Of a DNA stretch of 64,000 nt, positions 15,946 to 24,914 are shown piece after piece. The stretch spans positions 1 to 64,000 of the forward strand of contig CANFUT010000013.1 of assembly GCA_947450325.1 (NCBI GenBank), written 5' to 3'. The notes under the pieces were generated by a model. It saw only the letters and a program-made list of their open reading frames with translations, did not search any database and was not told the DNA's origin. Made by a program: the position numbers and the translations under genes. The stretch is from Flavobacteriia bacterium. GTDB taxonomy: Bacteria; Bacteroidota; Bacteroidia; Flavobacteriales_D; Crocinitomicaceae. The first letter of the stretch is position 1. Every line of letters starts with the position of its first letter.

Positions 15946-15998
15946 CAGACATTTAAAATTACAACGTTATCAAAAATTTTAAAATTTACTTATTACTG

Positions 15999-18056
15999 AT
16001 GTTGCTAGGTCAAGCTAACTTATCGTTTGCGCAACCTCAAAATGAGCAGAAAGTAGCTGCCACTATTAAGACGCTTCAAAAAATATTTGAAAACGAAGAA
16101 GCTAAGTTAAGCGAAGAAAAACCAATTTCCAGAGATTCTTCAGTAATTACTTTTTTAAGCAGATTATCAATTCAACACAAAGACTCTTCTTATAGTTATG
16201 ATAATTATTATGAAGCATATGAGAAGTTGTTAAGAAAGCAAACTGGACTTGCAGTTAATATTGATGCACTTCAAAATTTCAATCAATCTCAATCTGATGT
16301 TGAAGAAGGAATTCTTTATCAAAGAAGAGCGCAAGCAGGAATTGAATGGAATATCTTGAACGGCGGTTATTTTGATACTAGGGCTCAACTTAAAACGCTT
16401 CCAGCTGAAAGAAATTATTTCAACAATCTTGCAAGCAATGAATCCAAAGACGATTTTGGAATCAAAATGAACGAATGCATCTATTGGTTCAATGAGCACA
16501 AAAAAAGTTTATTAGTTGAAAGAGAGAGAATATTAAATCGTCAAATTAAATATTTGGAGGACTTATACTTTGCGAAAAAGATTGACAAAGAACAATTGTT
16601 GCGTTCTCAAACAAGAATTGCAGAAATCAATGGAATGAAAGGGATTTTTAATTCTTACAATCAACACATTGATTCTAAATTTGACAGTACGCTTTTGGCG
16701 GCAGAAGTTCCTTTGTTTGATTTGAATTATGATTATTTCTTTGGGATTTTAAACACACAAGAATTGGCTGATTCAATGCGTTTATTTTTGGAGGAAAATT
16801 TAACGAGACAAAATGCTTGGTACAATGAGATTAAACTTAGAACTTATGCAAGATATAATATTTATGATCTGTTAACAACAAATCCCTCTTACAGAAGATT
16901 TTTCAGTGTAGGTGTTTCTGTTGGAATTCCAATTCCATTTACAAACAAAGAACAAGCTGCTGTAAATAAATATAAAACGCAAAAACAGCTTTATACTTTA
17001 GATACTGATTTAAAAAATCAAAGAATTGAATTGTTGAATTTGGCTTATGAATTCAGATATCAATTGAAACAATACATTATTTTTCATCAAAAAAGAATTT
17101 TGGCTAATGAAGCAATCAGAAGAGAGCGCGTTAAAGCGAAAATGTTAGATGCTGATTTTAATCCTCTACATGGATTGGAATTGATTGATAATCTATTGCA
17201 GATTGACATTGAGTTGTTAGACTTAAAACAAAATTTGTACATCAAATTATTGAGAATTCATTCTAAACAAAACAACTTACCACTTGATTCTATGATAGTT
17301 CAACTAGATCTTCCAAATTATTTTGATTTCGAAGACGAAACAGAAAGAGGAGTTTATGTTTGGAGCAAAATTTTCGAAACTCAAAACCCATCATTTATTC
17401 AAGAATACATAGTATATAACCAGTTTGATGAAGCTTATATCGCCGTATCTGAAAATGACAAACAAATCTCTGCTAAAACAGCATTAGTGAAATCATTAAA
17501 CAAAAGCGAAATAGATGTTTATCCGATGGTTGGTCAAAACAAGTTATTAGATTCTGATGATTTTAAAGGAGACTTACAGAATTTATTAAAACCATTTAAC
17601 GGTTGGAAAATTGCTGGAATTCATTTGGATATTGAACCACACGTTAGAGCTGATTGGAAATCGAACAAGGCTGAATTAATGAGTAAATATTCAGAAATTA
17701 TTGATCAAGCCAAGATAATATGTGATTCTAAAAGTTGGAAATTATCGATTGATATTCCAATAAATATGGACACTAATTATGTAAATTCGATGTTTTCAAA
17801 AGTGGATATGATTCGCTTTATGTGCTACGAAAATGTGAAACTTGAATATTTAGTCAGAAAATTAAGCGCTTACAAAGAGCACAATAATAAAATAATGATT
17901 GCTTTAAGAACGGAAGATTTTAAAACAAGAGATGAAATGGAACTTTTTGCGAAAGCTTTATACAAAGAAACAGGAATCAAATGTTTTGGTTTTCATGATT
18001 TGTATAGATTGATTGAGATGGACAAAAAAACAATGACGGAAAATGAAAAACATTAA
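15999..18056 (+). CDS. TolC-like outer-membrane channel fused to a C-terminal glycosidase-like TIM-barrel domain
   Basis: Residues about 20-420 are long helices with the pattern of outer membrane efflux (TolC) proteins (IEWNILNGGYFDTRAQLK; RRFFSVGVSVGIPIPFTNKEQ; long coiled regions). From about residue 435 to 675 the sequence changes to an alternating strand/helix domain beginning GVYVWSKIFE and including AGIHLDIEPH, with Asp544 and Glu546 resembling the DxE of GH18-like barrels, and MIRFMCYEN. The ATG at 15999 gives an abnormally short signal sequence. The frame is open upstream to 15957 and encodes IKNFKIYLLL just ahead of it, so translation probably starts at an unusual codon near 15969. 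It overlaps the next gene by 14 bases. I infer an exporter that also trims glycan in the periplasm. Confidence 0.72.
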   Translation: MLLGQANLSFAQPQNEQKVAATIKTLQKIFENEEAKLSEEKPISRDSSVITFLSRLSIQHKDSSYSYDNYYEAYEKLLRKQTGLAVNIDALQNFNQSQSDVEEGILYQRRAQAGIEWNILNGGYFDTRAQLKTLPAERNYFNNLASNESKDDFGIKMNECIYWFNEHKKSLLVERERILNRQIKYLEDLYFAKKIDKEQLLRSQTRIAEINGMKGIFNSYNQHIDSKFDSTLLAAEVPLFDLNYDYFFGILNTQELADSMRLFLEENLTRQNAWYNEIKLRTYARYNIYDLLTTNPSYRRFFSVGVSVGIPIPFTNKEQAAVNKYKTQKQLYTLDTDLKNQRIELLNLAYEFRYQLKQYIIFHQKRILANEAIRRERVKAKMLDADFNPLHGLELIDNLLQIDIELLDLKQNLYIKLLRIHSKQNNLPLDSMIVQLDLPNYFDFEDETERGVYVWSKIFETQNPSFIQEYIVYNQFDEAYIAVSENDKQISAKTALVKSLNKSEIDVYPMVGQNKLLDSDDFKGDLQNLLKPFNGWKIAGIHLDIEPHVRADWKSNKAELMSKYSEIIDQAKIICDSKSWKLSIDIPINMDTNYVNSMFSKVDMIRFMCYENVKLEYLVRKLSAYKEHNNKIMIALRTEDFKTRDEMELFAKALYKETGIKCFGFHDLYRLIEMDKKTMTENEKH

Positions 18057-19143
18057 CTTCAAAAGAAACGAATCAGTCTTAAAAGGTCTTGAAATTCAGA
18101 CAAAAGGAAAGACTAAAGGGAAGGTTAACTGGGACAGGATTATTTATTTTGTGTTGCTGGGTATCATTCTACTATTCTTTTTTAGATATCTGATTAATGA
18201 ATTATTCTTTATTGAAGGTGATGGGCAAGTTCGATTTGAAAATATCTCTATTAGAAACACAGACGATTGTCGAGTTATTGACATTTTAGTTGCAGAAGGT
18301 GATGAAGTAAAAATTGGTGATTCGTTGTTTAGCTATATGGCAGATGATGACAATGCTGATGGAAACAATGGTGGTGGATATGGATCTGCCGGTTTTGCTC
18401 TGAATTCTAAAAAGCAAGGGGATGTTTCCTGGTCTGAAAAAGAAATTTTTAAAGTGCAAGAAGATATCAAGGTGAACAATTTTTTGATTGCTGAAAAAGT
18501 TAAGCTGAAAAATTTATATTCTGCAGAGCTACAACGGATTAGAAATGAAGTGATGTTGGATGTTTTGCCGAGAAATAAATTAGATGATCAATTGGCTAAA
18601 ATTAATCAATTGAATTTTGATATTCAATCGTTGAGAGGTAAAACTGCCATGCTTTCAGCCAGTTTAAATCAATTGGAAGGAATGAAAAGAGATTTAAGCT
18701 CTACTTCAACTTATGCTGGTAAAGGTCTCGGCGGCGGTGGAGGCGGAGATGATTCTGGACTAAAAGTTTTTTATTCACCACTGACAGGAACGATCACGAC
18801 AATCACAAAAAATGAGTTTGAGGTTGCCCTGAAAAGTGAAGAAATCATGTCAATTCACAGACCAGAAAACATTTCAATTCGAGGGTTTTTTGACCAACAA
18901 GATTTGGCTTCAATCAAAATTGGTGACCGTGTAGATTTACATTTTCCTGATGGATCTGAAGGTCGTGGAATCATAAAAAGATTTTATTTCGCAACATATA
19001 GATTGCCAGAGGAATTTCAAAAGAAATATGAACCAACAACTAGATCGTTGACTGTAGACATTTATCCTGAGACAAAACACGATTTAAAATTGTGGAAAGC
19101 ATACTGGAAAATGGCAGTTAAAATCACTAAAACTAAATATTAA
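18043..19143 (+). CDS. HlyD-like membrane-fusion / periplasmic adaptor protein
   Basis: The 366-residue protein has a short basic cytoplasmic N-terminus, one inner-membrane span at about residues 31-55 (IIYFVLLGIILLFFFRYL), then a split lipoyl-like barrel (RVIDILVAEGDEVKIGDSLF). A helical hairpin follows at about 130-215, then a Gly-rich linker near 228, the second lipoyl half (VFYSPLTGTITTITKNEFEV) and a beta-barrel domain ending near 360. This is the architecture of adaptors such as HlyD, EmrA and Alg44's periplasmic part. It overlaps the TolC-like gene by 14 bases and the next gene by 1 base, so it should bridge the GT2 synthase to the TolC-like channel. Confidence 0.82.
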   Translation: MKNINFKRNESVLKGLEIQTKGKTKGKVNWDRIIYFVLLGIILLFFFRYLINELFFIEGDGQVRFENISIRNTDDCRVIDILVAEGDEVKIGDSLFSYMADDDNADGNNGGGYGSAGFALNSKKQGDVSWSEKEIFKVQEDIKVNNFLIAEKVKLKNLYSAELQRIRNEVMLDVLPRNKLDDQLAKINQLNFDIQSLRGKTAMLSASLNQLEGMKRDLSSTSTYAGKGLGGGGGGDDSGLKVFYSPLTGTITTITKNEFEVALKSEEIMSIHRPENISIRGFFDQQDLASIKIGDRVDLHFPDGSEGRGIIKRFYFATYRLPEEFQKKYEPTTRSLTVDIYPETKHDLKLWKAYWKMAVKITKTKY

Positions 19144-20561
19144 TGGCCTTAGAAAACGTAAAAATAAACGCACTCAAAGGTACAATTAAGTACTCGAGCA
19201 GAACCTATGTTTATATTTCGGCAAGTCGAAAAATTAAATTAGAAAGTTCATCTACTTATGCTGGAATTATTATCGAAGGCAGAAATGTTGAGTTTGTGAG
19301 AATGGTTTTGAGAAGAATTCGTGGAAGTCATAATCCTGATGTCTATTTGAAGCCTGTTTTTTTAATGAATGGAAATGCGCACAAAGATCCGTTGGTTGCA
19401 AAATTAATTGATGGTGTATTAAATTCTTTTGATCAAATCCCATTGATTCATGATATTACTGAATCTATCAATCAACGTAAGTCTGAATTAACTTTTATCA
19501 ACTCAATTTCATTTGAAGCACAAGTTATTTCAAAGTTGATGTGTTATATGTTTACACGTGATGAAAAAGAATTCGAACCAGTTCCATATGCGCTTTCAAG
19601 TACGAATTATTCATTCCCATTTTTAGCATGTAATTACGAACCAAGTGATGAATACCAAATTTTTGATTTATTAAATACAGCTGTTAGCGAGGGATTATTT
19701 TCCGCTGAGTATTTAGATCGAGTTTATTTATGTGCAAATTGTAAATCTTCACATTTAAGTTACCGTGAAACTTGCACAAAATGCAATTCAACAAATACCG
19801 ATTCATTCGATATTGTGCATCATTTTCCATGCGCGTATGTAGGTCCAATTACGGATTTTACAAATGACATAGATGATAAATTGAACTGTCCAAAATGTTC
19901 TAAAACTTTAAAACATATTGGAATTGACTACGATAAACCATCAGTTTTACACGTTTGTAAAAATTGTAACCACAGATTTCAGGATTTCAACGTGTTGGCG
20001 AAATGTATGAGCTGTACACATGATAATCCCGTTGAGCAACTAGTTTCAAAGGAAATTTTTACCTACACGATGAGTAAAAAAGGAGAAGATGTTGCCTTGA
20101 GAGGTTATTCTTCAACTCCTAAAGACATTGAGGAAATAATTGGTACGGTTAAATTTGAGACATTCAAAACGGTTGTGAAATACGAAGTTGAACGAATTCG
20201 TCAAACAGAAGGAAGTTCAAATGTTGTTGCTGTAAATATTGTGAACGCAGGCCAGTTTTATGCCAAAGTGGGAAGTAACGGACAACAAGCATTCTTGAGA
20301 GATATCGTTGCAGAAATTCGTTCTTCAATCAGATCTTCTGATATGATTACATTTTACTCTTCAGAGATTATTTTGATTACGATGAATGATATTCCAAGTA
20401 AAATCGTTTCAAGAATTTTAAGTGATATTTTGGATTTGTTGAAAAAGTTAATTGAGAACAATTTCAAGGACTTGGCGATAGATATTAACGGTAAAGCACT
20501 TCAGTTGAATTTAGAAACAACATCTGAACTTCAAGTTAATGAATTGATCAATAGTTTGTAA
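19143..20561 (+). CDS. TackOD1-like zinc-ribbon protein with degenerate GGDEF domain, putative regulator of the synthase
   Basis: Three parts are visible. Residues 1-110 resemble a pseudo-receiver (AGIIIEGRNVEFVRMVLRRI). Residues about 190-300 carry repeated CxxC pairs, starting C197/C200 and C211/C214, then an HHFPC block, CPKC, CKNC and CMSC. This spacing fits the TackOD1 zinc-ribbon output domain as I recall it. Residues about 345-470 look like a GGDEF fold (NAGQFYAKVGSNGQQAFLRDIVAEIRSSIR), but the active-site loop reads YSSEII (405-410) instead of GG[D/E]EF. No signal peptide or membrane span is seen, so it is cytoplasmic. Its start and stop each overlap a neighbour by 1 base. I infer c-di-GMP-related or metal-linked control of the GT2. 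Confidence 0.7.
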   Translation: MALENVKINALKGTIKYSSRTYVYISASRKIKLESSSTYAGIIIEGRNVEFVRMVLRRIRGSHNPDVYLKPVFLMNGNAHKDPLVAKLIDGVLNSFDQIPLIHDITESINQRKSELTFINSISFEAQVISKLMCYMFTRDEKEFEPVPYALSSTNYSFPFLACNYEPSDEYQIFDLLNTAVSEGLFSAEYLDRVYLCANCKSSHLSYRETCTKCNSTNTDSFDIVHHFPCAYVGPITDFTNDIDDKLNCPKCSKTLKHIGIDYDKPSVLHVCKNCNHRFQDFNVLAKCMSCTHDNPVEQLVSKEIFTYTMSKKGEDVALRGYSSTPKDIEEIIGTVKFETFKTVVKYEVERIRQTEGSSNVVAVNIVNAGQFYAKVGSNGQQAFLRDIVAEIRSSIRSSDMITFYSSEIILITMNDIPSKIVSRILSDILDLLKKLIENNFKDLAIDINGKALQLNLETTSELQVNELINSL

Positions 20562-21865
20562 TGAATTTAAACGAATTCTTTGAATACTTATCTGCGATGG
20601 GCATCAGCCGATTTGCTAGGGTATTCTGGTTTTTTGTGTTCTTTGAGCTAATTAGATATGTCGTCGTAGATTTTATCTCATTAAATTCAGCTTTCATGAA
20701 AAAGCGCTTTACAAGAAATTTAAGAGAGGAAGCGACTTATCGTTTTAAATTGGAACAACCTTTAGTTTCAGTAATTATTCCGGGGAAAAATGAAGGGAAG
20801 CACATTTACAAATTAGTAATGTCGCTTCGCGAGCAAACCTACAAGAATATTGAAATAATTGTTGTAGACGATGGTTCTGACGACGACACTCCTTTTATTG
20901 GAAAGGATATGGAAAGAAATGGTTTCATTGATAAATTTATTCGAAATGAATTCAGAGGTGGTAAAGCTTCAGCGGCCAATTTAGCATTGCGTTTTTCTAC
21001 GGGGAAGTTTGTAGTGCACATGGATGCTGATTGCAGTTACAATCGAGACGCTATTTTTGAAATTATTGTACCATTTTATGAAGACGATAGAATTGGAGCT
21101 ATCGGTGGAAATGTAATGGTGAAAAACTACAAGGACTCCTTAGTGACTACAATTCAGGCGATTGAATATTATGATACCATTTCGATTGGTAGAATTGTAA
21201 CTAGTCATTTGGGGATCTACCGTGTAATTTCCGGGGCATTTGGCGCTTTTAAAATGGAAGCCATGCAACAAATCCAAGGCTGGGATATAGGACCAGGTTT
21301 GGATGGAGATATTACAGTGAAAATTAGAAAAGTGGGGTATTTAATCAAATTTGCTCCAGATGCTGTTTGTTTGACAAATGCACCAAATACTTTTCAAAAA
21401 CTGGCAAAACAGCGACTTCGTTGGGATAAAAGCTTGATTCGTTTCAGACTTCGAAAACACAGAGATGTTTTCTTTCCAAACCAACATTTTAATTTTCCTA
21501 GTTTTATTTCATTTTTAGAAAATATCACCTACAACTTGATTCTAAACGTCAAATGGTATGTCTATGTAATTGATATGTTAGTCAATTTTCCATCGGAATT
21601 GAAATTTGTAATTTATACAAATATATTATTGTATACAACCGTGAATTACTTCAAATTTCTCCTTTTCTCGTTGTTTAGAAAATACAAAAATGCTCCTGTT
21701 AGTTATTTTTTGATATACATCCCATTAATGGTTGTCTATTTTGGTTATTTTTTGAGATTTGTAAGAACGATTGCATACATCCAAGAATTTTTCTTTAAAA
21801 AATCATACGATGATCCTTGGAATCCACCAAAATCATCTGCGCAAGCAAAGAAATTAGGGATTTAA
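20561..21865 (+). CDS. Processive family 2 glycosyltransferase (exopolysaccharide synthase)
   Basis: This is a BcsA/PgaC/hyaluronan-synthase-type enzyme that polymerises a nucleotide sugar and threads the chain across the inner membrane. It has an N-terminal span at about residues 17-38, the UDP-binding Asp103-Asp104-Gly105, the DxD metal motif Asp155-Ala156-Asp157, a GLDGD block supplying the general base (Asp250 region), and the processivity motif Q284-R-L-R-W288. Two or three C-terminal spans lie at about 322-405. The length of 434 residues is close to PgaC. No PilZ domain is fused to it. It overlaps the upstream regulator gene by 1 base. The polymer is unknown. Confidence 0.9.
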   Translation: MNLNEFFEYLSAMGISRFARVFWFFVFFELIRYVVVDFISLNSAFMKKRFTRNLREEATYRFKLEQPLVSVIIPGKNEGKHIYKLVMSLREQTYKNIEIIVVDDGSDDDTPFIGKDMERNGFIDKFIRNEFRGGKASAANLALRFSTGKFVVHMDADCSYNRDAIFEIIVPFYEDDRIGAIGGNVMVKNYKDSLVTTIQAIEYYDTISIGRIVTSHLGIYRVISGAFGAFKMEAMQQIQGWDIGPGLDGDITVKIRKVGYLIKFAPDAVCLTNAPNTFQKLAKQRLRWDKSLIRFRLRKHRDVFFPNQHFNFPSFISFLENITYNLILNVKWYVYVIDMLVNFPSELKFVIYTNILLYTTVNYFKFLLFSLFRKYKNAPVSYFLIYIPLMVVYFGYFLRFVRTIAYIQEFFFKKSYDDPWNPPKSSAQAKKLGI

Positions 21866-21902: not shown

Positions 21903-24900
21903 ATGAACATATACATTACCTTATTATTGACCTTTTTTATATCTGTAAATTCGTTTTCTCAATTAAAGATAAACGAGGTATTATTTAAACAAAATGGCGT
22001 ATATTACGATTTTGAATCAGACTGCGCTTCCATTGTAGAATTGATAAATATTTCAACATCAAGTGTAAATGCATCAAACTACTTTTTATCCGACGTTGAA
22101 ACAAATATTTTGAAATGGCAATTGCCTAATATTTCAATTGCTCCAAATGCAAAATTGATAGTCTTTTTAAGTGGGAAAGGATTATATACGCCAGAGAATC
22201 ATACTAATTTTAGAATTGGAGCAGGAGATAATTTGATACTTTCAACTTCAACTACTATAGTTGATGAAATTTCAACTTTAAATCAATATCTAAATTACAG
22301 TTATTCAAGATTCCCGGATGGAACAGGTGCGTTCGTTTATTCAATTCCAACTTTAAATGCTACAAACAGTAATGGAGTATCAGTTTTTCCGTCACAACCA
22401 GGAGTAAACTTAGTCCCTGGAGTTTACCCAGTTAATTCGGTTATTAGTTTTAATTCAAGTCCTTTAACAGTAAGATATACTTTGAATGGTTCGGAAGTTA
22501 AAAGTACTTCACCAACTGCTCCATCTGCTATCGTTCTTACAAATCCGAATCTAAGACCAAATAATTTTTCTGAAATTCCTACAAATCCAGAAGATAATGC
22601 ACCGATTGGTCAATATTCTCAAGCAAGAGCGGACAATCGTGGTTGGGTAGAACCTTATGGGAATGTTTCGAAAGCTTTTATTTTGAGAACGAAATCATTT
22701 TCTACGAATGGAATTGAATCTGAAGAAAAAGCTTACACTTATTTTACCTCCTTGCCAACATATAATCTACCAATCATCTCTATTATTACCGACAGCATTG
22801 GTTATTTTGACAATGAAACGGGTATTTACGTATACGGGAATGATCCAAACGGAAATTATGTGAATTTAGGTAGGAAATACGAAAGACCAGCAATCGTTCA
22901 ATTTTTTGATTCATTAGGTGTTTTCGAAAAGGAAATTACGCTTGGTACCAGAATTCATGGAAATGGATCAAGACATTCTGCACATAAATCTTTGAGATTA
23001 TACAGTAGATTCGATTATGATACTACTAAATTTGAATTGCCCAATGGGGACAATTTAGATGTTGCAATCTTGCGTAACGAAGGTCATAGTCCATTTTGTA
23101 TTGGAAGAGATTATCTTTCAAACCAATTTGTGAGCGATATGGATATGGATCATGCTAAAGCTTTTCTTTATGCTGTTTATTTAAATGGAGAGTTTTGGGG
23201 GATTAATGATTTAAGAAGTAGGTTAGATGCTGAATATTTCTCGGATAGATATGGTATAAAAGATGATGGCGTGGCAGTATCTGATTTTACATATGGAATT
23301 ATTGATGGTCAACTTGATAATCCCAATGAACTTGATGAAATCACAATTTTTGCTGAGAATAATGATTTGACAATTCAATCCAATTTCGACTATATCACAG
23401 AAAAGGTAGATGTTAATTTATTAATGGATTTATTTTGTTCTGAGATTTTCTTAGGAAATGCTGATTTCCCGAGAACAAATATTGGGTTTTGGAAATATAA
23501 AGACGCCAAAGCTGAATCAAAATGGAGACACTATATTTTTGATGTAGACGCTGCTTTTGGAGGTTCTTGTGATACCGTTTATAAATCGTTCAATGCGCTA
23601 GATTATTATTTACAAGAAACAACTGCTGATTTTAAGAAAGCGAATCGTTTACTACGAAAAATGTTAATGAACCCAAGCTTTAAAGCTTTGTTCATTAATA
23701 GAATGGCGGATTTGATGAATACAGAATTTAAAGCAGAAGTACTACAACCAAAATTTACTGAGTATAAAAATGACATTCAAGATATTAGAGTAGACCATGT
23801 GAATCGTTGGAGATATCCTTCCACAAGTTCAACGCTTGCTAACAGACAAACGGAGGTACCGTCGTTGAATAAATGGAATCTTTTGCATACTGGCTTTGGA
23901 ACTTATTTTAGTGATAGACAACGAAACGTTAGAAATCACTTTAACGCTAAATTTACAATTGCTGATAGTGTTAGGATCACATTAAATGTCAACAATGTAA
24001 ATCAAGGGTTGATAAAAATCAATGAATTGTACATTTCAAAAGCTGTTTCTGGTGTAAATGACTTAGTACCATTCCCTTGGACAGGTCAATATTTTGCTTC
24101 AATCCCGTTCCCTGTTACTGCAATTTCAAAAAGAGGTTATAAATTCGATAGTTGGTCGAATGTTCCTTCAAATACTTATTCTGCAACGATTAATACAACT
24201 TCTGATTTGAATATTTCTGCAAATTTCATTGCTGATCCAAATTTCATTGAGCCAATGATTAATGAAGTATTAATCAATAATGAATACAACTGGCCGGACG
24301 AATTTGGACAGTTTGAGGATTGGATTGAAATTTATAATAAAAACAATTATCCAATTACAATTGAAGAATATTTCCTAACAGACGATATTACTTTACCCAC
24401 GAAATACAGATTGAAGCCTAAAAATGCAAGTGTGATCCCGGCAAATGGCTACCAATTGTTTTTTGCGTCCGATGAAAGAAATAGAGGCGCAGCGCACACC
24501 AATTTTAAATTGAGTGCAAATGAAACACTTTTCTTATTTGCGCCGGATAGTACTACCATCATTGATGAAATTGATTTGCCAGCTTTGGATGTTGATTTCT
24601 CGTACGGAAGCTCTCCAAATGGAAGCACAAACCGTGTTGTTTTTGATAGTCCAACACCATTGAATAACAATGATTTGTCATCAATTCTAGAATTGGAAAA
24701 AATCAAAAAGACTTTTACGGTTTATCCAAATCCAAATGATGGAACGATTGTTTATACTTCCATTTCAAATGATTACAACGTTTACAATATGCAAGGTTCA
24801 CTTATTTTGAAAGCAACAAACACGAACCAATTGCCAATTGCAGGTTTACAAAGTGGAACCTATTTGGTTGTAAACAAAGAAGGTTCAACGCAATTATTGG

Positions 24901-24914
24901 TAGTTAGTAAATAA
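21903..24914 (+). CDS. CotH-kinase-family surface protein with lamin-tail domains and T9SS type A sorting domain
   Basis: The signal peptide is MNIYITLLLTFFISVNSFSQ. A first lamin-tail (LTD) domain spans about residues 22-155 (KINEVLFKQNG). A chitobiase-C-like segment (YTLNGSEVKSTSPTAPS) precedes a CotH domain at about 290-680, with TRIHGNGSRHSAHKSLRLYSR, LNGEFWGINDLRSRLDAEYF and YIFDVDAAFGG (Asp547 and Asp549 fit the metal-binding DxD). A second LTD is at about 780-915 (PMINEVLINNEYNWPDE) and a T9SS sorting domain (FTVYPNPNDGTI) closes the protein. CotH proteins are atypical kinases or nucleotide-dependent modifiers. It follows the GT2 gene by 37 bases. I infer a surface protein that modifies or holds the exported polymer. 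Confidence 0.85.
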   Translation: MNIYITLLLTFFISVNSFSQLKINEVLFKQNGVYYDFESDCASIVELINISTSSVNASNYFLSDVETNILKWQLPNISIAPNAKLIVFLSGKGLYTPENHTNFRIGAGDNLILSTSTTIVDEISTLNQYLNYSYSRFPDGTGAFVYSIPTLNATNSNGVSVFPSQPGVNLVPGVYPVNSVISFNSSPLTVRYTLNGSEVKSTSPTAPSAIVLTNPNLRPNNFSEIPTNPEDNAPIGQYSQARADNRGWVEPYGNVSKAFILRTKSFSTNGIESEEKAYTYFTSLPTYNLPIISIITDSIGYFDNETGIYVYGNDPNGNYVNLGRKYERPAIVQFFDSLGVFEKEITLGTRIHGNGSRHSAHKSLRLYSRFDYDTTKFELPNGDNLDVAILRNEGHSPFCIGRDYLSNQFVSDMDMDHAKAFLYAVYLNGEFWGINDLRSRLDAEYFSDRYGIKDDGVAVSDFTYGIIDGQLDNPNELDEITIFAENNDLTIQSNFDYITEKVDVNLLMDLFCSEIFLGNADFPRTNIGFWKYKDAKAESKWRHYIFDVDAAFGGSCDTVYKSFNALDYYLQETTADFKKANRLLRKMLMNPSFKALFINRMADLMNTEFKAEVLQPKFTEYKNDIQDIRVDHVNRWRYPSTSSTLANRQTEVPSLNKWNLLHTGFGTYFSDRQRNVRNHFNAKFTIADSVRITLNVNNVNQGLIKINELYISKAVSGVNDLVPFPWTGQYFASIPFPVTAISKRGYKFDSWSNVPSNTYSATINTTSDLNISANFIADPNFIEPMINEVLINNEYNWPDEFGQFEDWIEIYNKNNYPITIEEYFLTDDITLPTKYRLKPKNASVIPANGYQLFFASDERNRGAAHTNFKLSANETLFLFAPDSTTIIDEIDLPALDVDFSYGSSPNGSTNRVVFDSPTPLNNNDLSSILELEKIKKTFTVYPNPNDGTIVYTSISNDYNVYNMQGSLILKATNTNQLPIAGLQSGTYLVVNKEGSTQLLVVSK

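Follow-up and report, generated by a model that had tools for sequence, protein, structure and literature searches.

For the polysaccharide exporters Pga, Pel, Bcs, and Alg, it is a standing question why they carry a cutter of their own product. The locus analyzed here raises it again, with the putative cutter covalently part of the exit channel: in the window, i.e., the whole stretch of 64,000 nucleotides of Bacteroidota DNA considered in this work, an ORF of 685 amino acids as listed (positions 15999–18056; all the window features given below lie on the + strand) encodes an outer-membrane channel with a barrel at its C-terminus. Is this fusion real, to which machinery does it belong, and what might the barrel do there?

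The channel half and the start of the gene

The fusion ORF is open throughout, and a search of its own genome retrieved it as a single copy. The motif GIHLDIEPH is indeed present in it, with Asp544 and Glu546 at the positions given in the original prediction. The codons immediately upstream of the listed ATG (15969–15998), in frame and reading IKNFKIYLLL, show only synonymous differences from those of a close relative (L020), the bases farther upstream being divergent, and they complete a normal signal peptide at the N-terminus of the protein; judging from these nucleotides, the true start of the ORF would probably lie upstream of the listed ATG. The first of these codons is ATC in both the window and L020, a possible AUC start codon.

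The first two thirds of the protein had been read as a TolC-type helical channel, which the structural data bear out. In the full-length model, residues 1–426 (approximately 1–425; 15999–17276) display the TolC topology, that is, two repeats in which a beta hairpin stands between long helices, the hairpins being at residues 84–94/109–117 and 279–288/300–311. Probing with this model, Foldseek retrieved AcrAB-TolC (5ng5_C, E = 1.4e-6) as the best match, followed by OprN, TolC, and OprM. Pfam OEP matched 20 of the 24 relatives (best 7.7e-12) and narrowly missed the window protein taken by itself (20.7 bits, cut-off 22). A profile search against PDB sequences gave no useful match for this part, the E. 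coli TolC sequence showed a short weak match and nothing more, and single-sequence searches of the whole protein against PDB and NCBIfam returned only chance matches. The TolC identity is based on the fold and on the Pfam matches of the relatives and, as modelled, the channel half is a TolC/outer membrane factor by its two repeats and two hairpins. The model itself (18 sequences, pLDDT 78.9, pTM 0.49) does not fix the seating of the barrel on the channel.

The barrel half and its motif

The C-terminal domain had been predicted to follow a strand/helix pattern at residues 435–675. Such a domain is present, with limits slightly later than those claimed: residues 449–681 (17343–18041). AlphaFold, run on the domain alone (20 sequences), gave eight strand-helix units with a pLDDT of 88.7, i.e., a (beta/alpha)8 or TIM barrel, as had been proposed. 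With this model, Foldseek placed the C-terminal hydrolase domain of E. coli PgaB first (1.7e-7) and GH18 chitinases next. VIA-align scored GH18 enzymes, chitinase-like lectins, and PgaB at Z 18–20, in effect tied, with an rmsd of 2.7–5.0 over about 214–232 residues for the GH18 type; when the full-length model was used, VIA-align matched only the barrel, and the TolC match came from Foldseek instead. A profile of the domain alone, a search that had also been suggested, matched a set of Bacteroidota GH18 proteins (E = 6.3e-9). Pfam Glyco_hydro_18 gave weak-to-moderate matches in six of 25 relatives (E up to 1; best 2e-6) and none, at E up to 1, with the barrel domain of the window; sequence comparison with E. 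coli PgaB gave no match. These data confirm that the fusion of a TolC-type channel to a barrel is real.

The DxE acid had been likened to that of GH18-type barrels, and strand positions and alignment agree in placing D544/E546 at about the end of strand beta4, the site of the catalytic acid in GH18. The two residues, candidates for catalysis, belong to the sequence HLDIEP (residues 542–547; 17622–17639), and a second motif, MCYE (residues 608–611; 17820–17831), at the end of strand beta6, resembles the MxYD of GH18. In the profile alignment, GIHLDIE falls on GH18 GIDIDWE, so that D544 and E546 correspond to the closing DxE of DxDxE, and MCYE falls on MTYD, M608 and Y610 corresponding to MxY. 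The barrel thus shares with GH18 chitinases the fold, the D-x-E on beta4, and the M-x-Y on beta6; it differs from them in being smaller, in not keeping SxGG, and in the replacement of the first two acids of DxxDxDxE. The complete motif is not found in the window, which reads A-G-I-H542-L-D544-I-E546, where D544 and E546 are the only acids kept and the first two acidic positions are taken by an A539-like residue and by H542 (the middle one). Because these two acids are lost and the Pfam GH18 matches are few and weak-to-moderate, the domain is GH18-like, not GH18.

The multialignment of 25 sequences, sharing 20–38% barrel identity apart from two close ones at 78–85%, revealed that the H, D, E, and P of HLDIEP and the M and Y of MCYE are invariant; the residues kept without exception across the relatives are H542, D544, E546, P547, M608, Y610, R637, D640, F641, and D667. 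The catalytic face, defined as the six residues at the C-terminal end of each strand (48 of the 230 positions), holds 18 of the 21 near-invariant barrel positions (at least 95% conserved in the 25 sequences; p = 2.5e-11), and the opposite face holds one of the 21. When the strand map was slid round the domain, 18 was reached at one of the 230 offsets, the true offset included. Between close relatives, the barrel dN/dS is 0.04–0.085, with dS near saturation, which speaks for strong constraint and no more.

D544, E546, and Y610 correspond to the residues that GH18 enzymes use for the substrate-assisted cleavage of N-acetylhexosamines, and we infer a hydrolytic activity of the barrel. The barrel could instead be a catalytically idle polymer-binding module guiding the chain into the channel, in the manner of the YKL-40/IDGF lectins or of the early view of PgaB: non-catalytic chitinase-like lectins (1jnd) are among its best structural matches, IDGF-2 and other chitinase-like proteins share the top ranks with GH18 enzymes (Z 18–20), and the GH18 motif has lost its first two acids here. 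However, lectin-like GH18 relatives typically lose the catalytic Glu, whereas E546 and D544 are invariant in 25 out of 25 sequences, including those from a different class; an idle module is, in our opinion, unlikely.

Relatives of the barrel that carry HLDVEP-type motifs also occur as stand-alone proteins (L080, 8120–9466; L081, 7777–9657; L082, 1631–3952), one of them T9SS-tailed. The best PDB sequence match of the profile is 10yv, a putative GH97 from Cellulomonas fimi (E = 0.0035), and they possibly represent an unnamed hydrolase family.

The operon, its distribution, and the loss of the barrel

Three genes follow the fusion ORF, and the four overlap by 14, 1, and 1 bases. The first codes for a HlyD-type periplasmic adaptor (18043–19143; Pfam HlyD_3, 4.6e-7), a conserved neighbor whose gene shares the 14-base overlap with the channel gene; the second for a cytoplasmic, probably regulatory protein with a TackOD1 domain and a degenerate GGDEF domain (19143–20561; Pfam TackOD1, 1.4e-48); and the third for a processive, PgaC/IcaA-like GT2 with the sequence QRLRW (20561–21865; NCBIfam PgaC_IcaA, 3.2e-47). 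The order channel-barrel, HlyD, TackOD1, GT2 is kept at every locus with a long enough contig, the TackOD1 protein being split in two in the operons of another class. The GGDEF signature is lost in all the relatives aligned, and for this reason a cyclase activity appears unlikely from the sequence. TackOD1 was named from archaea, in the context of archaeal signalling, with no function assigned there (PMC5847659); in Bacteroidota, this archaeal signalling domain is a marker of the fused-channel operon.

The QxxRW motif is present in the window GT2 and in all 27 relatives in the tree, and by its sequence the enzyme is a processive synthase of the kind found in synthase-dependent EPS systems. Its score against PgaC_IcaA (161 bits) is far under the equivalog cut-off of 422, which makes the identity of the polymer uncertain. 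A GT2, a HlyD adaptor, and a TolC-type channel in one operon fit polysaccharide export. HlyD and TolC proteins have roles in drug efflux and type I secretion as well, so that an efflux or protein-secretion TolC could adjoin a GT2 by chance, with the barrel serving something else; yet the conserved operon encodes neither an ABC, nor an RND, nor an MFS pump, and in both classes it is the GT2 that constantly accompanies the channel, which makes such a coincidence very improbable. No TPR protein is encoded in the conserved operon either.

Downstream of the GT2, the window carries a gene for a CotH-kinase-like protein that is secreted and has lamin-tail domains and a T9SS tail (21903–24914). This gene is a partner in some lineages only: in the window and in L034, L037, and L038, which cover the family of the window and one other, it lies 3' of the GT2. 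T9SS-tailed polysaccharide-deacetylase relatives adjoin the operon in five genomes from three families (L026, 3–2015; L031, 13756–15837; L034, 3213–5336; L035, 5359–7461; L037, 7758–9881), which suggests a deacetylation outside the cell after export; no such gene was found in the window itself.

Among 295 Bacteroidia genomes, 19 (the window included) gave a match, 18 with the barrel, two of these loci being cut by contig ends, and one with the barrel truncated. The TolC-barrel fusion is also harbored by five genomes of another class; plasmids did not yield any relative of the fusion protein. A Pfam TackOD1 search retrieved the 19 genomes of the fused channel and, in addition, G249, where the contig begins immediately upstream of the TackOD1 gene. 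The arrangement is kept across many Bacteroidota families, and the protein family appears to be unnamed. In five loci, a YCF48/BNR propeller segment precedes the channel at the N-terminus, recognized by Pfam PSII_BNR in L010 (1.2e-17) and L006 (2.7e-11) and by sequence likeness in L011, L013, and L014; Pfam did not bear out the SPOR domain that the N-terminus of L016 had seemed to carry.

Four operons of the other class (L119, L120, L121, and L122) lack the barrel. The channels of the first three are 423–429 amino acids long, and that of L122 (3313–4992) has 560, with a short extra tail that does not match the barrel profile. In genome G202 (L019/L039; 9898–11505 in L039), the channel, like that of L122 of intermediate length, keeps the first and last strands of the barrel and has lost the middle with D544/E546. 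All four barrel-less operons carry a nucleotide-sugar dehydrogenase gene 5' of TackOD1, the best model for which is the TviB-type UDP-GlcNAc 6-dehydrogenase, with a score under the model cut-off; in the stretch examined around each barrel-bearing operon, no TviB-like dehydrogenase gene was found. The barrel-less operons have two additional genes, for which a role as the hydrolase supplied separately was considered and rejected, since they encode this dehydrogenase and a DUF4114 protein. In the GT2 tree, the five barrel-less or eroded operons form one clade (100/97), a sister lineage, four of the five having the dehydrogenase gene, and genome G463 holds both operon types. A related dehydrogenase is encoded elsewhere in the G202 genome and likewise in the window's own genome (49% identity), for which reason only the operon linkage of this gene is informative.

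Since the barrel-less operons carry a dehydrogenase not found near the barrel-bearing ones, the barrel seems tied to the polymer rather than to export: it probably follows polymer chemistry and would be dispensable for export as such. We read this as one lineage having lost the barrel as the polymer became of a uronic-acid type, a correlation that amounts essentially to one evolutionary event. The polymer of the barrel-bearing operon would probably be of the HexNAc type. The same operons bear on the idea that the barrel is a peptidoglycan hydrolase, opening the wall for the assembly of a trans-periplasmic conduit. The GH18-fold cell-wall enzymes SleL and Cwp19 are among the best structural matches, and the barrel is expected in the periplasm; but a wall opening should be needed for any polymer, whereas the dehydrogenase operons have no barrel, and ordinary TolC pumps work without such a domain. 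We regard this role as quite unlikely.

A working model and its relation to known systems

The reading that we favor, with somewhat better than even confidence, is that the four-gene operon encodes a synthase-dependent machine for polysaccharide secretion, of a type seldom described, in which a TolC-type channel is the exit and a periplasmic hydrolase of the polymer is fused to it. The proposal that a hydrolase-like barrel is built into a polysaccharide exit channel is supported by the TIM barrel, the motif, and the operon, the activity itself being inferred. In this machine, the GT2 would polymerize a hexosamine-type polymer and move the chain across the inner membrane under the control of the TackOD1/degenerate-GGDEF protein, and the HlyD adaptor would link the GT2 to a presumably trimeric TolC-type channel across the periplasm and the outer membrane. 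In TolC, both termini are periplasmic and near the equatorial belt; by analogy, because both termini lie there, the C-terminal GH18-like barrel of each subunit would sit at the periplasmic belt, with three barrels round the tunnel. E546 may act as the acid, with D544 and Y610 holding the N-acetyl group, and the polymer would be cut, either in trimming the chain or in clearing polymer leaked beside the conduit.

The closest working scheme is XcsAB-TolC, a model for cyanobacterial cellulose secretion whose parts are scattered and whose proof is awaited (PMC12430437, citing Maeda 2018). As outlined there, Xcs resembles the window operon in combining a GT2 synthase, a HlyD-like adaptor, and a TolC channel with an associated glucanase; it differs in that its TolC is encoded elsewhere and its glucanase is separate, whereas in the window all lies in one operon, with the hydrolase-like barrel fused and the GT2 PgaC-like.

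The Pga/PNAG system (PgaABCD) is similar in its PgaC-like GT2, in the PgaB barrel (GH153), the top Foldseek match, and in having a periplasmic hydrolase at the outer-membrane exit. PgaA, however, is a TPR beta-barrel porin, and PgaB, which has a deacetylase domain of its own, is not fused to it. More generally, the exit of the canonical Pga, Pel, Bcs, and Alg systems consists of a TPR scaffold and a beta-barrel porin (PMC9384988), in contrast to the TolC-type channel and HlyD adaptor of the window. Partly deacetylated PNAG is a substrate of the PgaB barrel, whose probable catalytic residue is D474 (PMC5933820), and the activity of this barrel is raised in complex with the PgaA pore (PMC9384988); by analogy, the fused cutter could represent a PgaB-PgaA-like coupling made permanent.

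The statement that no family with this fusion is known holds in part. A hydrolase-pore fusion has a precedent in BcsZC, reported from the cellulose operons of Zymomonas, where a periplasmic cellulase is joined to the pore for cellulose (PMC7112194); that system, however, makes cellulose, its BcsZ part being a GH8 glucanase and its BcsC part a TPR beta-barrel pore. The TolC and GH18-like version appears to be undescribed: in the openly accessible literature, we found no description of a TolC-glycosidase fusion or of this operon.

A broader proposal, which we advance tentatively and with slightly less than even confidence, is that these operons form a distinct Bacteroidota secretion class, with an enzymatic TolC-trimer exit in which three belt hydrolases would trim the chain, the barrel being kept or dropped as the polymer shifts from HexNAc to uronic acid. 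For the question of why exporters carry such cutters, the family offers natural controls, with the barrel intact, truncated, or absent and with both operon types in one genome. It also provides a case, at the level of an operon, for the export of a polymer by TolC, HlyD, and GT2 together, for which cyanobacteria offer only a model with scattered genes.
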